The notes beneath the pieces are model-generated. The model saw nothing but the letters and a program-made list of their open reading frames with translations, was not told where the DNA came from and searched no databases. A DNA stretch of 64,000 bases from Crocinitomicaceae bacterium (GTDB taxonomy: Bacteria > Bacteroidota > Bacteroidia > Flavobacteriales_D > Crocinitomicaceae). Positions 2,588 through 7,841 of this stretch are shown in pieces; within the stretch, counting starts at the first letter, position 1; every line of letters begins with the position of its first letter. Where the stretch lies: positions 62,001-126,000 of the forward strand of contig JAIPCC010000001.1 in NCBI GenBank assembly GCA_021738405.1, written 5' to 3'. A program made the position numbers and the translations under genes.

Positions 2588-5500
2588 ATGGACACACCAA
2601 GTTTTAAAGAAGACCATATCAGCCAGATTCCTGCATTGCAAATGCTGGTGAATTTGGGTTATACCTATTTATGTCCGGCAGAAGCCGACAGACAAAGAGG
2701 AGGAAAAACCACTAATGTATTACTAGAAGATGTACTGCGTAAACAGCTGAAGGAAATTAATTCAGAAAAAACGATAAGTTCAACAAAATCAACTTATATA
2801 AGCGATGCAAATATTGAAAATGGAATTCAGATTTTAAAAAATCTGCCCATGAACGAAGGCTACATTGCAGCTAGCGAAAAAGCATATAACCTACTCACTT
2901 TAGGTCAGGCATTAGAACAAAGTGTAGATGGTGACAAAAAGAGTTTTACCATGCAATACATTGATTGGAAAAATATCAAAAACAATGTATTTCATGTAAG
3001 CGAAGAATATAGCGTGATGAGAAGCACCAGCAAAGAACATTACCGTCCCGATTTGGTATTGTTTGTCAATGGAATTCCACTTTGCATCATTGAATGCAAA
3101 CGTCCTGATATGAAAGAGCCGCTGAAACAGGCTATCAGTCAGCATTTGCGTAACCAACAAGAAGATGGTATTCGTAGTTTGTATGTATATTCTCAGCTCA
3201 CAATGAGTATTGCCACACAAGAAGCGGCATACGCTACTAATGCCACACCAGAAAAATTTTGGGCTAAATGGAACGAAAAATTCAGCAGTGATGATGAAGA
3301 AAGAAACTATAATAACAAATTACTGGAACTCAAAAATCATTCACTTACTTTAGCTGTAAAAGAACAGTTATTTTCTGATCGTTTCAAATATGTTCGTCAA
3401 TATTTTGATGCATTAGAACAAGAGGAAATTTTGCCAACCGAACAGGATAATTATTTGTATGGATTGTGCTCTCCTGAAAGATTAATGGATATTGTATTCA
3501 ATTTTGTTTTGTTCGATAATGGAGAAAAGAAAGTTGCCCGCTATCAGCAGTTTTTTGCAATCAAAAAATCCATGCAACGCATTAAGCAAATTGAAAATGG
3601 AAAACGTAAAGGTGGGGTAATCTGGCACACACAAGGAAGCGGGAAATCATTAACGATGGTTATGTTGGCACAAGCCATTGCCATGGAACCAAGCATTCGT
3701 AATCCAAAGATTGTATTAGTAACTGATAGAACTGATTTAGACAATCAAATTACCGGCACATTTAGAAAGTGTGGTAGGTTTGTAGAAAATGCAACCACAG
3801 GACAACGCTTGGTAGAATTACTGGAAAACAAAGGTGATGCAGTTGTAACTACTATCATCAACAAGTTTGTGGCAGCCGTAAAAAAAATAAACAAACCATT
3901 AGAAAGCCACGACATTTTTGTGTTGGTGGATGAAGGACACCGAACGCAACATGGCACATTTAACATTGATATGCAAAAGACTTTGCCGAATGCTTGTTTT
4001 ATTGCCATGACGGGAACACCGTTATTCAAGAAAGATAAAAGTACCGCAGAGAAATTTGGTGGAATGATTGACGCTTACACAGTAGACCAAGCTGTAAAAG
4101 ACCATGCTGTTGTTCCGTTACTTTATGAAGGAAGATTGGCATTGCAAAATGTAAATGCTAGTCCCATTGATACTTTTTTTGGGATGGTTTCAGAACCATT
4201 AACAGAATACCAAAAAGCAGACATAAAAAAGAAGTTTGCCCGAAACGATCATTTGAATTCGGCCGAACAAAAAATGCGGATGATTGCCTGGGACATTAGC
4301 TATCATTTCCGTGACAACTGGCAAGGCAAAACACCATTCAAAGGTCAGTTGGTTTGTGATAAAAAAGTAAACGCAATCAAATACAAAGAGTATTTGGATG
4401 AAATTGGTATTGTAAGCAGTGCAGTTTTGATTTCGTCAATTGATGAAAGAGAAGGCGAAGAAAGTGCTTATGAAAAATCTACAGAAAAGGAAAATCAGTT
4501 TTGGAAAAAAATGATGGATGAACATGGCAATTCAAAAAGCTATGAAAAGAACATTATTAGTCGATTTAAAAATCAGAATGACCCAGAAATTATTATTGTA
4601 GTAGACAAATTACTAACGGGATTTGATGAACCCAAAAACACCGTTCTATATCTCACAAGGAATTTACAAAGCCATAAATTATTGCAAGCTATTGCAAGAG
4701 TAAATCGCATTTATCCCGACAAAGAATTTGGCTACATCATTGATTATTATGGTGTAATTGAAAATTTGGATGATGCTTTGCAGTTGTATTCTTCTTTTGA
4801 AGATTTTGATGATGAAGATTTGGCAGGAACGTTGACCAACATTTCAGATGAAATAAAAAAACTACCGCAAAAGCATTCAGACCTTTGGGATATATTTAAA
4901 ACCATTGCCAACAAACGTGATGCGGAGGCGTATCAGCAATTATTAAAAGATGAAGCAATACGAGTATTGTTTTACGATAAACTAGCTGTATTTGCCAAAA
5001 AATTCAAATTAGCCTTATCTTCTATTCAATTTCATAAAGAGGTAGAAGCAAAGGTAATCGACCGCTACAAAGAAGATTTGACAATGTTTTTGAAATTACG
5101 TTTGGCAGTTGTTGAAAGATACAGCGATGTAATTGATTACAAGCAATACGAAGGCCAAATTCAAAAACTGATAGACACTCACATAACCACCGAGAAAATT
5201 GAAACAATTGTAGAGCTAGTCAATATTTTCGATAAAAATAAATTTCAACAAGAGGTTGAAAACACGGTAGGTAAAGCAGCTAAAGCAGACAAGATTGCTA
5301 GTAGAACAGCGAAGCATATTACCGAGAAAATGGATGAAGATCCAGCCTTTTATAAGAAGTTCTCACAACTTCTCAAGGAGACCATTGCAGATTATGAAGC
5401 AAAAAGAATTTCAGAAGCACAGTATTTATCAAAAGTTCAGGATATCATGGACAATGTTCTAACTAGAACAGACAATGACGTTCCGGATTTATTAGCAGGT

Positions 5501-5818
5501 AAAGATGAGGCAAAGGCCTTTTATGGAATTTCAAAGGAATTACTTACTGCGAAAATTCAAGATGAAATAGTACTTAAGGAAGTCTCTGCACAAACAGCAT
5601 TAAATATTGACGAACTAATTAGAAAATCTGTACTTGATAATAACAAGCCTGTTGTTGATTGGCAAAATAAATCCAATATAACTGGAAAGCTTTTAATTGA
5701 AATTGGAGATTATTTAATTGATGAAGTACGTGACAAATATAGTATTGACCTATCATTTGGAGAAATGGACAAACTTGCAGAAGATTGTATCGAAGTCGCA
5801 AAAATACGATACAAATGA
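2588..5818 (+). CDS. hsdR: Type I restriction enzyme, restriction/translocation subunit R
   Basis: The 1,076-residue protein is the ATP-driven DNA translocase and nuclease subunit of a type I restriction system. The N-terminal nuclease domain has Asp155 and the Glu169-Cys-Lys171 pair of the PD-ExK fold. The helicase motor has Walker A GSGKS at 350-354, Walker B/DEAD-type DEGH at 448-451, a TGTP segment and a QAIARVNR motif VI. The start at 2588 was chosen because the upstream ATG at 2534 lies within a dyad and the family sequence begins naturally after 2588. The last four bases overlap the next gene (ATGA). No modification (M) or specificity (S) gene is in the window; they probably lie upstream of base 1, otherwise the restriction subunit would be orphaned. 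Confidence 0.95.
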   Translation: MDTPSFKEDHISQIPALQMLVNLGYTYLCPAEADRQRGGKTTNVLLEDVLRKQLKEINSEKTISSTKSTYISDANIENGIQILKNLPMNEGYIAASEKAYNLLTLGQALEQSVDGDKKSFTMQYIDWKNIKNNVFHVSEEYSVMRSTSKEHYRPDLVLFVNGIPLCIIECKRPDMKEPLKQAISQHLRNQQEDGIRSLYVYSQLTMSIATQEAAYATNATPEKFWAKWNEKFSSDDEERNYNNKLLELKNHSLTLAVKEQLFSDRFKYVRQYFDALEQEEILPTEQDNYLYGLCSPERLMDIVFNFVLFDNGEKKVARYQQFFAIKKSMQRIKQIENGKRKGGVIWHTQGSGKSLTMVMLAQAIAMEPSIRNPKIVLVTDRTDLDNQITGTFRKCGRFVENATTGQRLVELLENKGDAVVTTIINKFVAAVKKINKPLESHDIFVLVDEGHRTQHGTFNIDMQKTLPNACFIAMTGTPLFKKDKSTAEKFGGMIDAYTVDQAVKDHAVVPLLYEGRLALQNVNASPIDTFFGMVSEPLTEYQKADIKKKFARNDHLNSAEQKMRMIAWDISYHFRDNWQGKTPFKGQLVCDKKVNAIKYKEYLDEIGIVSSAVLISSIDEREGEESAYEKSTEKENQFWKKMMDEHGNSKSYEKNIISRFKNQNDPEIIIVVDKLLTGFDEPKNTVLYLTRNLQSHKLLQAIARVNRIYPDKEFGYIIDYYGVIENLDDALQLYSSFEDFDDEDLAGTLTNISDEIKKLPQKHSDLWDIFKTIANKRDAEAYQQLLKDEAIRVLFYDKLAVFAKKFKLALSSIQFHKEVEAKVIDRYKEDLTMFLKLRLAVVERYSDVIDYKQYEGQIQKLIDTHITTEKIETIVELVNIFDKNKFQQEVENTVGKAAKADKIASRTAKHITEKMDEDPAFYKKFSQLLKETIADYEAKRISEAQYLSKVQDIMDNVLTRTDNDVPDLLAGKDEAKAFYGISKELLTAKIQDEIVLKEVSAQTALNIDELIRKSVLDNNKPVVDWQNKSNITGKLLIEIGDYLIDEVRDKYSIDLSFGEMDKLAEDCIEVAKIRYK

Positions 5819-6513
5819 GCAAGCGAACATTTCTATTTGGGTCGACAGAAATTGAATATACACTTCAGTATTCAGAGAGGAAAACTTTAGGAATTACAGT
5901 TACGCCAGAAATGGAAGTAATTGTTACGGCACCCTTAGGAACTGAAATTCACAAAATTGAACCGAAGCTCATTAAACGAGCTCCATGGATAATTCGACAC
6001 TTGAGTTACTTTTTGTCTTTTCATCCAAAAACACCAAAAAGAAAATATGTCAATGGGGAAACTCACTTATATTTGGGGCGACAGTATTTATTAAAAGTAA
6101 ATCTGGAGCTAGAAGAATCGGTTAAACTGAAAGGGAAACATATTATTGTTTCTACAAAAAAATCTACCAATGTAAAGCTCTTACTTGAAAACTGGTATCA
6201 TCAGCAAGCTAAAAATAAATTACATACGATTGCCCAACCATTAATTGATAAATTTAAAAAATACAAAGTTGCACCTTCCAATATAGAACTTCGTTCAATG
6301 CCCAAACGATGGGGAAGCTGTACCGCTAAAGGTAAAATCATATTAAATCCTGAATTAATAAAAGCTCCAAAAGGCTCAATCGAATATGTAATCACACATG
6401 AACTTTGCCATTTAATTCATCATGACCACACACACAAATTCTTTGAATTACAATCAAAGGAAATGAGGGATTGGGGAAAATGGAAGTTGAAATTAGAATC
6501 CTTGTTAGCATAA
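5815..6513 (+). CDS. YgjP-like (DUF45) zinc metallopeptidase
   Basis: The 232-residue protein has the gluzincin motif HELCHLIHH followed by DHTHKFF near the C-terminus, and the family-typical RWGSC stretch before it, so it belongs to the YgjP/DUF45 group of SprT-like metallopeptidases. The two His of HExxH bind zinc and Glu is catalytic. The ATG overlaps the hsdR stop as ATGA, showing translational coupling. DUF45 genes are frequent companions of type I restriction genes, but their role there is unknown; processing of a restriction subunit or of phage proteins is speculation. Confidence 0.9.
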   Translation: MSKRTFLFGSTEIEYTLQYSERKTLGITVTPEMEVIVTAPLGTEIHKIEPKLIKRAPWIIRHLSYFLSFHPKTPKRKYVNGETHLYLGRQYLLKVNLELEESVKLKGKHIIVSTKKSTNVKLLLENWYHQQAKNKLHTIAQPLIDKFKKYKVAPSNIELRSMPKRWGSCTAKGKIILNPELIKAPKGSIEYVITHELCHLIHHDHTHKFFELQSKEMRDWGKWKLKLESLLA

Positions 6514-6534
6514 AAAAAAATATTATTCATTTTC

Positions 6535-6559
6535 AACTGTTGCATTTTTTGCAACAGTT
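6535..6559. repeat. Inverted repeat 10-N5-10 behind the metallopeptidase gene
   Basis: AACTGTTGCA, five T and TGCAACAGTT form a perfect 10-bp stem 22 nt after the YgjP-like stop codon. It could stabilise the 3' end of the hsdR transcript. Its TTGCATTTTTTGCAA core resembles the second hairpin of the 56-bp element at 6635-6690. Confidence 0.65.
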
Positions 6560-6634
6560 CATACTCCTCACTCCTAATTTTTATTAATTTCAAGTTGTTC
6601 CATTTTGGAACAGGTAACTTTTAAATTTTAAATT

Positions 6635-6690
6635 GGAATATGCACAATCTGCATATTTCAAAATTGAGTTGTTGTATTTTTTGCAACTAC
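6635..6690 (+). repeat. 56-bp two-hairpin direct repeat, copy A
   Basis: Hairpin 1 pairs GGAATATGCA with TGCATATTTC around the loop CAATC. After an AAAATTGA linker, hairpin 2 pairs GTTG with CAAC around a T-rich loop and ends in CAACTAC. Copy B at 6971-7026 has the same length and almost identical stems, while the loops differ. Confidence 0.75.
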
Positions 6691-6767
6691 TGGTCTACTC
6701 CAATCTCGTTAATTTTGGCAACCCAAGGAAGAATTTAGTATGAGTGCTAGTATAATTGGTATAAATA

Positions 6768-6794
6768 CAACTACCGAGGAATTTTCGGTAGTTG
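6768..6794. repeat. Inverted repeat 10-N7-10
   Basis: CAACTACCGA and TCGGTAGTTG form a perfect 10-bp stem with a 7-nt loop. The outer CAACTAC word is shared with the ends of both 56-bp elements. Confidence 0.6.
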
Positions 6795-6888
6795 AGTAAA
6801 AGGTTACTTAATATCACTGTTTCCAAAATGGAAATAATCAGAGACGCCGAAATTTCGCCAAAATTGCAAACTGTAGAAAAAGAGAGAA

Positions 6889-6929
6889 TTTTTGCGAAAA
6901 GTAGTGAAATCCGCTACTTTTCGCAAAAA
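6889..6929. repeat. Inverted repeat 16-N9-16
   Basis: TTTTTGCGAAAAGTAG and CTACTTTTCGCAAAAA form a perfect 16-bp stem with a 9-nt loop, the longest in this patch. Both strands read T-run, stem, A-run, the opposite of an intrinsic terminator, so a DNA-binding or structural role is more likely. Confidence 0.7.
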
Positions 6930-6970
6930 AATACTCTTGCATTCAATCTTCTTTAATTTTTAGAATAATA

Positions 6971-7026
6971 GGAATATGCAGAAAATGCATATTCCAAAAT
7001 CGAGTTGTTGCAAAAAATGCAACTAC
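6971..7026 (+). repeat. 56-bp two-hairpin direct repeat, copy B
   Basis: GGAATATGCA, GAAAA, TGCATATTCC is now a perfect 10-bp stem. The linker AAAATCGA differs from copy A by one base, and the second hairpin pairs GTTG with CAAC around an A-rich loop that is close to the reverse complement of the copy A loop. It ends four bases before the stop of the HTH gene. Confidence 0.75.
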
Positions 7027-7030
7027 TCGT

Positions 7031-7396
7031 TCACACAATTTCATTTAACTCATTTATTTTTTGAGCCATCCACCAAATATCTTCCTGGTAAGTTCTGATT
7101 GGTTTAACTTCAGGAATGCGTAACAAACTATTCACCTGTGTAACTGAAAAATAATTTCTTTTATTAATTCGAGTGGGACAGAGTTTCCCGGCTTTAATAT
7201 AATTATCTATGCTGCGACGGCTTAATCGTAGCATTTGCATCACGTCATAGGTATCTACCCATTTGCTTGTGAAATCATCAACCGGATTTTTCAGACTTTT
7301 TATTTCGGATTGCAAATGTTGGAGCATAGATTTCATTTCCATGAATTGTTCCAAAAGCATTTCATTTGTGATTTTGATCTTAGTATTTACATTCAT
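7031..7396 (-). CDS. Helix-turn-helix DNA-binding protein of the mobile-element (HTH_17-like) type
   Basis: The 121-residue protein has a probable N-terminal coiled coil (about residues 10-40, rich in Met, Leu, Glu and Lys) and then a MerR/excisionase-like helix-turn-helix at about 48-90, with the pattern DVMQMLRLSRRSIDNYIKAGKL. Such small HTH proteins are typical of Bacteroidota integrative elements and genomic islands, where they act as regulators or excisionase-like factors. Its base composition matches the AT-rich island to its left rather than the chromosome to its right. No integrase is visible in the window. Confidence 0.7.
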   Translation of the reverse strand: MNVNTKIKITNEMLLEQFMEMKSMLQHLQSEIKSLKNPVDDFTSKWVDTYDVMQMLRLSRRSIDNYIKAGKLCPTRINKRNYFSVTQVNSLLRIPEVKPIRTYQEDIWWMAQKINELNEIV

Positions 7397-7841
7397 AATA
7401 TTCTAAAATAAAATCATTTTTTCAGAAGAAAAAGCCTTGATACATTTTGGTACACTTTGGAACAGTACTTTAGACTCCTTTAGACAGAATAAGAATAAAG
7501 AGTGATAAAAAACGATAAAATTATTTAGTATTTCACTGTTCATTTATTCAAATATTCACTGTTCATCCCTTTCCTTTTTGAACAAAAAATCGAAGTAGAA
7601 AAAAATAAAAATCAACAACAAAATACAACTATTAAAAAAATATTTTATCTTCGTTTTATCGTTCTTTATTGTTGCTTATTTGTTACGCAACAAAGTCGAA
7701 ATCTGATGAGTAGTTGCTCATTTGTTGCTCGAATTACTTCTTGAAAGCCTCTGCTTATAAGGGTTTCAGCAGTTATCTATTATTATTGATTCATGTATTG
7801 GCAAATAATTTCCCTACCTTCGTATTCAAATTTTCAACCTT
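7397..7841. other. Non-coding gap at the probable island boundary
   Basis: No gene was found in these 445 bp. A 12-bp direct repeat TTCACTGTTCAT occurs at 7532-7543 and 7555-7566. Base composition changes from AT-rich to the more balanced chromosome near the right end. No tRNA or clear attachment site was recognised. Confidence 0.5.
7815..7822 (+). promoter_or_regulatory. Bacteroidota -7 box (TACCTTCG) for the S46 peptidase
   Basis: TACCTTCG fits TAnnTTTG except for one base and lies 19 nt before the start codon. No convincing -33 element at the expected spacing was seen. Confidence 0.45.

Follow-up and report, generated by a model that had tools for sequence, protein, structure and literature searches.

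A non-coding array of palindromes resembling RhuM-type sites of several specificities: a possible decoy locus in a Crocinitomicaceae genome

What could be the use of a crowd of palindromes in the gap where two convergent genes meet by their 3′ ends? The region in question (6514-7031, about 520 bp, non-coding and of no assigned strand) lies within the 64-kb stretch of DNA that we analyzed (the window), and its palindromes, about nine in number, span 6535-7029. Seven palindromes with the geometry described below occur in this 518-bp region compared with 31 across the other 63.5 kb of the window, and chance is ruled out as the source of the excess. The explanation we favor, with a probability of roughly two in three, is that the region is an array of sites, of several specificities, for regulators of the RhuM type, and may serve them as a decoy (titration) array.

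The array and its duplicated unit

On one side, a YgjP-like metallopeptidase gene (5785-6513, + strand), which closes a type I restriction region that includes a SoFic-type gene and HsdR, converges on the array; on the other, the 3′ end of an HTH_17-like gene (7031-7396, - strand) abuts it. The genes that follow HTH_17 orthologs (about 55% identical to that of the window; loci L131-L137) differ between genomes, so the locus looks like a hotspot for gene insertion. No open reading frame of at least 80 amino acids lies within 6514-7030, and a coding reading of the array was rejected for that reason. Elsewhere in the window, two related long palindromes (ATGTATAGAAAA...TTTTCTATACAT) at 2367-2410 and 2532-2565 stand on either side of the gap that separates the SoFic-type gene from hsdR, and are possible operators of the C-terminal winged helix of the Fic protein.

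An earlier note, made from the letters alone, had described a two-hairpin element duplicated here with nearly identical stems and changed loops. The duplication is real: the unit is 64 nt long, with copy A at 6631-6694 (two sites, centers 32 bp apart) and copy B at 6967-7030, the copies are 80% identical, and each contains one GGAATATGCA and one GTTGTTGCA palindrome. The loops read caatc in copy A and gaaaa in copy B for the first hairpin, ttttt and aaaaa for the second; 8 of 10 loop positions differ between the copies, as against 5 of the 54 others (Fisher p = 1.1e-5), and the inner half-sites differ by a single base, at 6675. Constrained stems and free loops were thus correctly perceived, and so was the absence of a REP form, since a repeat search of the genome outside the array returned no dispersed family, only one strong short match (in a rhuM gene on C87) and otherwise weak ones. 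The two copies are, however, only part of an array of about nine palindromes, the rest of which had escaped notice.

We define a RhuM-type site as an odd-centered palindrome of two 5-bp half-sites separated by a 5-bp spacer, the half-site being one that is present in rhuM genes. Six array sites have this form with at least 8 of 10 pairs, and two more with 7 of 10. The TTGCA type is represented by i) site 1 (6535-6559, center 6547; AACTG-TTGCA-ttttt-TGCAA-CAGTT, 10/10 pairs), ii) site 4, hairpin 2 of copy A (6667-6691, center 6679; AGTTG-TTGTA-ttttt-TGCAA-CTACT), and iii) site 8, hairpin 2 of copy B (7003-7027, center 7015; AGTTG-TTGCA-aaaaa-TGCAA-CTACT); the ATGCA type by site 3, hairpin 1 of copy A (6635-6659, center 6647; GGAAT-ATGCA-caatc-TGCAT-ATTTC), and site 7, hairpin 1 of copy B (6971-6995, center 6983; GGAAT-ATGCA-gaaaa-TGCAT-ATTCC, 10/10 pairs). 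Site 5 (6769-6793, center 6781; AACTA-CCGAG-gaatt-TTCGG-TAGTT) is of the CCGAG type. The two imperfect sites, which we count against our explanation, are site 2, of the GTTCC type (6592-6616, center 6604; GTTCC-atttt-GGAAC, 7/10 pairs), and site 6, of the TTTCC type (6815-6839, center 6827; CACTG-TTTCC-aaaat-GGAAA-TAATC, 7/10 pairs). Together with these representatives of at least five RhuM specificities stands one long palindrome of another kind, TTTTTGCGAAAAGTAGTG-aaatc-CGCTACTTTTCGCAAAAA at 6889-6929.

This last palindrome bears a weak resemblance to the operator of AbiEi. AbiE is a type IV toxin-antitoxin system whose AbiEi protein binds inverted repeats (PMC7319586). A lookalike is found just upstream of an abiEi gene in one genome (G131) and a partial one in another (G086), which amounts to 2 of 10 abiE loci; the coordinates are about 3407-3445 in locus L056, and there is also locus L484. 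Unlike an AbiE operator, 6889-6929 is adjoined by no abiE genes, and a search for AbiEi in the genome of the window gave no match. To judge from the likeness, the array may also address AbiE systems.

Palindromes within rhuM genes and the recognition helix

RhuM proteins are of wide distribution, frequently occur as fusions to Fic domains, and are encoded in restriction loci. When 199 related genomes were searched with the array, as the earlier note had proposed for the stems, the result was a set of short strong matches, most of them within genes of the RhuM family (Pfam PF13310) about 200 nt from the start, and eight array palindromes match palindromes inside such genes. More stringent patterns gave the same answer, as did additional scans of relatives: i) in 86 genomes of the genus, CTACCGA-N7-TCGGTAG has 6 occurrences, in 5 rhuM genes and at site 5 of the array, and its reversed control has none; ii) the 21-bp pattern AATATGCA-N5-TGCATATT has 4 occurrences in the 86 genomes, two of them in rhuM genes and the other two in the array copies (in copy B at 6973-6993); iii) the TTTCC type lies in rhuM reading frames of relatives in 5 of 5 cases (pattern scan, sequences read by eye), including ACTGTTTCCAAAATGGAAATAG, which is nearly identical to site 6; and iv) the core and spacer of site 2 are those of the rhuM gene of B. 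thetaiotaomicron p5482. GTTGCA-N5-TGCAAC alone was discarded as a RhuM marker because it proved unspecific (one dnaJ match and many with unrelated spacers). At a threshold of at least 8/10 pairs, a dictionary of rhuM palindromes contains 6 of 7 array palindromes (the seventh being 6889-6929) compared with none of the 31 in the remainder of the window; of 20000 random dictionaries, not one did as well on the array. We regard it as very likely, on this comparison of sequences, that the array palindromes are RhuM-type sites. The array is nevertheless not itself a rhuM gene or pseudogene, a candidate ruled out both by the lack of a suitable open reading frame and by the flanks beyond the 25-bp sites, whose similarity to rhuM coding sequence is not above that of shuffles (P 0.12-0.86).

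We therefore turn to the palindromes in the genes, in a family set of loci from many bacterial genomes, some archaeal genomes, and viral contigs. Nearly all of 62 rhuM genes, mostly from the genus, have a perfect or near-perfect palindrome whose sequence and encoded peptide vary (TVAKNATV, TTELFSVV, VVAFFATT, and NMQKMH among others); the palindrome of site 1 encodes TVAKNATV or TVAFFATV in rhuM genes, and the counterpart of site 4 encodes VVAFFATT. In 186 rhuM genes, drawn from many phyla of bacteria and archaea, a palindrome of about 25 bp is found at one coding position, directly after the helix-turn-helix (HTH), with inner pentamer arms that are identical in 178 of the 186 and lie 10 bp, or one turn of the helix, apart, center to center. 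The spacer between the pentamers has 5 bases, mostly A/T, A5 and T5 both being common. In 206 rhuM genes the best palindrome between the HTH and the core has 10.1 paired bases, compared with 5.5 in synonymous-codon shuffles; such palindromicity is far beyond what synonymous codons give. A second operator-like site was not found in the flanks examined for 172 rhuM genes, promoters included. The outer arms form classes (AACTG, CAGTTG, AGTGGTT) that track the register of the peptide. At some loci (L115, L111, L107, L066) rhuM genes of differing specificity stand close together or in tandem, and some of these genes end just after the palindrome or after the Bro-N-like core.

The half-site follows the recognition helix. 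Helix residue 2 corresponds to a base of the pentamer (K to T in 87/87, R to G in 21/22, Q to A in 6/7), and the residue before the invariant H to two others (E to GG in 32/32, L to AG in 23/24, R to CA in 64/67), although, the rhuM sequences being akin to one another, there will have been fewer evolutionary events than these counts suggest; the R to G step is nevertheless seen in several helix backgrounds (GTGCA, GTCGG, and GTTCC types), which argues for repeated change. MI/H with the half-site reaches up to 0.86 at helix positions and at most 0.49 at other variable positions. Pairs of rhuM genes with like helices have the same sites even when the rest of the protein differs, whereas pairs with unlike helices have different sites even at more than 80% core identity. 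The B. thetaiotaomicron plasmid rhuM, which stood outside the set from which the code was drawn and was fetched afterwards, combines the helix KRPAITKH with GTTCC-atttt-GGAAC and fits the R to G rule. In an AlphaFold2 model of RhuM (pLDDT 87), the specificity residues are placed at the start of helix 41-53, and the peptide encoded by the palindrome forms the next strand after that helix; the RhuM core gave no usable relative in the PDB, whether searched by sequence or by fold.

For the in-gene palindrome the most fitting reading is that of a double-stranded DNA site for the protein which the gene itself encodes, because a reading as RNA or hairpin does not predict the correlation with the helix, and we think it probable to a high degree that RhuM-type sites are read by the HTH as double-stranded DNA. 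The constraint that the earlier note had placed on a folded strand would accordingly lie elsewhere: stem sequences that covary with a DNA-recognition helix point to operator half-sites in duplex DNA. If the "stems" are half-sites and the "loops" a spacer that RhuM does not read, the loop changes between the copies are explained, and the suggested inversion of loop segments becomes unnecessary, A5, T5, and AAATT spacers being interchangeable at the same point in rhuM genes.

A decoy locus and its alternatives

As we see it, the array would consist of palindromic double-stranded DNA sites, of at least five specificities, for RhuM-family proteins with an N-terminal HTH and a Bro-N-like core. In each site two 5-bp half-sites would face the same side of the helix at a center-to-center distance of 10 bp, with an A/T-rich 5-bp spacer between them and arms on the outside. 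RhuM would use its recognition helix, as a dimer, to read the half-sites and would ignore the spacer, a mode of binding and a dimer geometry that we infer from the sequences. Nearly every rhuM gene carries its own single site within its coding sequence, and a stand-alone mixed array could compete for RhuM-type proteins, either holding them from the self-site or mimicking it, and in that way serve as a decoy, or titration locus, that counters several RhuM systems together. Such extra sites might either block RhuM or trigger it.

Similar sites occur in viruses. Viral contigs scanned for four full palindromes gave 29, 57, 21, and 29 matches, and reversed-stem controls for two of the four gave 2 and 0. 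The viral sites lie mostly outside rhuM; about half are intergenic, and others fall in-frame in unrelated phage proteins, at linkers or ends (for example in SSB, primase, DNA polymerase, a Sak4-like protein, and a portal protein). As in the window, sites of other specificities lie nearby: they were found within 200 bp of viral sites in 9 cases, compared with 0 in the control, and such mixed clusters occur within 18-81 bp. Named phages with sites are Synechococcus phage Yong-M3-232, Acidovorax phage AP1, and Pseudomonas phage AH02. None of 50 viral site-bearing records had a RhuM match, a result that is weak per record as the records are mostly fragments, and no HTH-only relative of RhuM was found in the viral DNA examined; a phage-encoded RhuM or HTH-only relative was therefore rejected as the reader of the viral sites. 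Viral sites of the RhuM type are often located within or next to genes for replication (SSB, primase, DNA polymerase, Sak4, RusA; loci L336, L375, L404, L437, L446, L464, L470, and L478).

Relatives of the array exist as well. In one genome (G053), an array that is shorter and partly collinear comes after an HTH_17 ortholog (55% identical) and retains TTGCA, TTTCC, and CCGAG sites, and in another (G019) a TTGCA-type site follows the HTH_17 ortholog; neither genome has a rhuM match, so that in the former part of the array appears to have outlasted rhuM. Three things favor a decoy role: no one regulator would suit several specificities mixed at a single non-coding spot, comparable clusters are present in viruses in which rhuM was not detected, and a relative has kept some of the array beyond the presence of rhuM. 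The role is weakened because the three rhuM genes in the genome of the window cover just the TTGCA type among those of the array, and because the per-base density of non-rhuM sites in viruses is not clearly above that in cells (a rough estimate, the size of the collection being approximate). On balance we propose the decoy role tentatively, at somewhat less than an even chance.

We consider it unlikely that the region is regulatory, with RhuM-type operators controlling some transcript or insulating the two convergent genes. The geometry is indeed that of a palindromic operator, and the array is partly conserved in G053, but the array has the 3′ end of a gene on either side, contains no open reading frame, and shows no excess of promoters (3 found against 4.3 expected); the mixture of five specificities, and the retention of part of the array in G053 where rhuM was not detected, tell against this reading as well. 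We give less credence to the possibility that RhuM recognizes invading DNA by these palindromes, the array being a captured or self copy of the target: the viral sites in or beside replication genes would suit such attack or sensing, as would the match of RhuM to the PADLOC candidates PDC-S05 and PDC-S23, yet a site that harms a phage should be lost, whereas these sites are in-frame in protein linkers as if selected, and rhuM genes themselves contain the same site. Slightly more doubtful again is a decayed tandem rhuM cluster of which the palindromes alone are left. Two genomes (G066 and G043) do have rhuM genes of different types in tandem, and rhuM fragments that stop just past the palindrome, but the flanks of the array sites are without significant rhuM coding similarity, half-sites are kept while loops diverge, and the same mixed clusters, within 18-81 bp, are found in viruses. 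Finally, bidirectional terminators or a folded RNA, close to what the earlier note had in mind, would suit the convergent location, a region palindrome-rich throughout (fold z = -12.7), and the 4 terminator-like matches in 6400-7500 compared with 0.4 expected, but this we believe hardly at all, as only three of about nine palindromes score in the terminator scan, with poor T-tracts, no Rfam family matches (best 28.1 bits against a gathering cut-off of 85), and neither the sequence identity to palindromes inside rhuM genes nor the helix code would be explained.

Relation to known systems and meaning

A decoy array would have precedents in part. The parS sites inside parB/spo0J, and other operators inside genes, are cases in which a DNA-binding protein has a palindromic site in its own gene as well as sites elsewhere. 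The RhuM site is likewise palindromic, lies within the gene of its presumed binding protein, and has further copies elsewhere; it differs in changing together with the helix family-wide, and in the lack of a second site in the flanks of the 172 rhuM genes mentioned above. E. coli datA is a titration locus for DnaA, a cluster of sites away from the regulated gene that serves one protein. By analogy, the array is likewise a cluster of sites that could soak up a DNA-binding protein, but it mixes at least five specificities where datA serves one protein. Operators inside genes and titration loci are thus known kinds; a self-site that co-diversifies with its reader across a family, and arrays of mixed specificity, are new to us. 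No mention of the in-gene rhuM palindrome or of the recognition code was found in the literature searched, a search with most subscription papers and preprints outside its scope.

The array shares its palindromes with the interior of rhuM genes, and the window lies in a region of type I restriction genes that includes one of the SoFic type, though the array itself is no rhuM gene. RhuM (PF13310) has been proposed as a toxin in restriction loci (Anantharaman 2013, PMC3710099). It is also a candidate phage-defense protein. More broadly, RhuM may be a defense-related family in which each gene harbors the target of its own protein, beside the recognition helix, the two diversifying together by a residue-to-base code, while phages and bacterial chromosomes carry stand-alone multi-specificity decoy arrays; this wider picture we would not yet wager on.

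The self-site and the residue-to-base code supply a predicted DNA target for nearly every rhuM gene, so that binding is testable at once, and the array gives a first handle on what RhuM proteins may recognize. If mixed arrays are decoys, viruses and bacteria would have a purely DNA-encoded countermeasure against a whole family of systems, and one that would be detectable from sequence alone.
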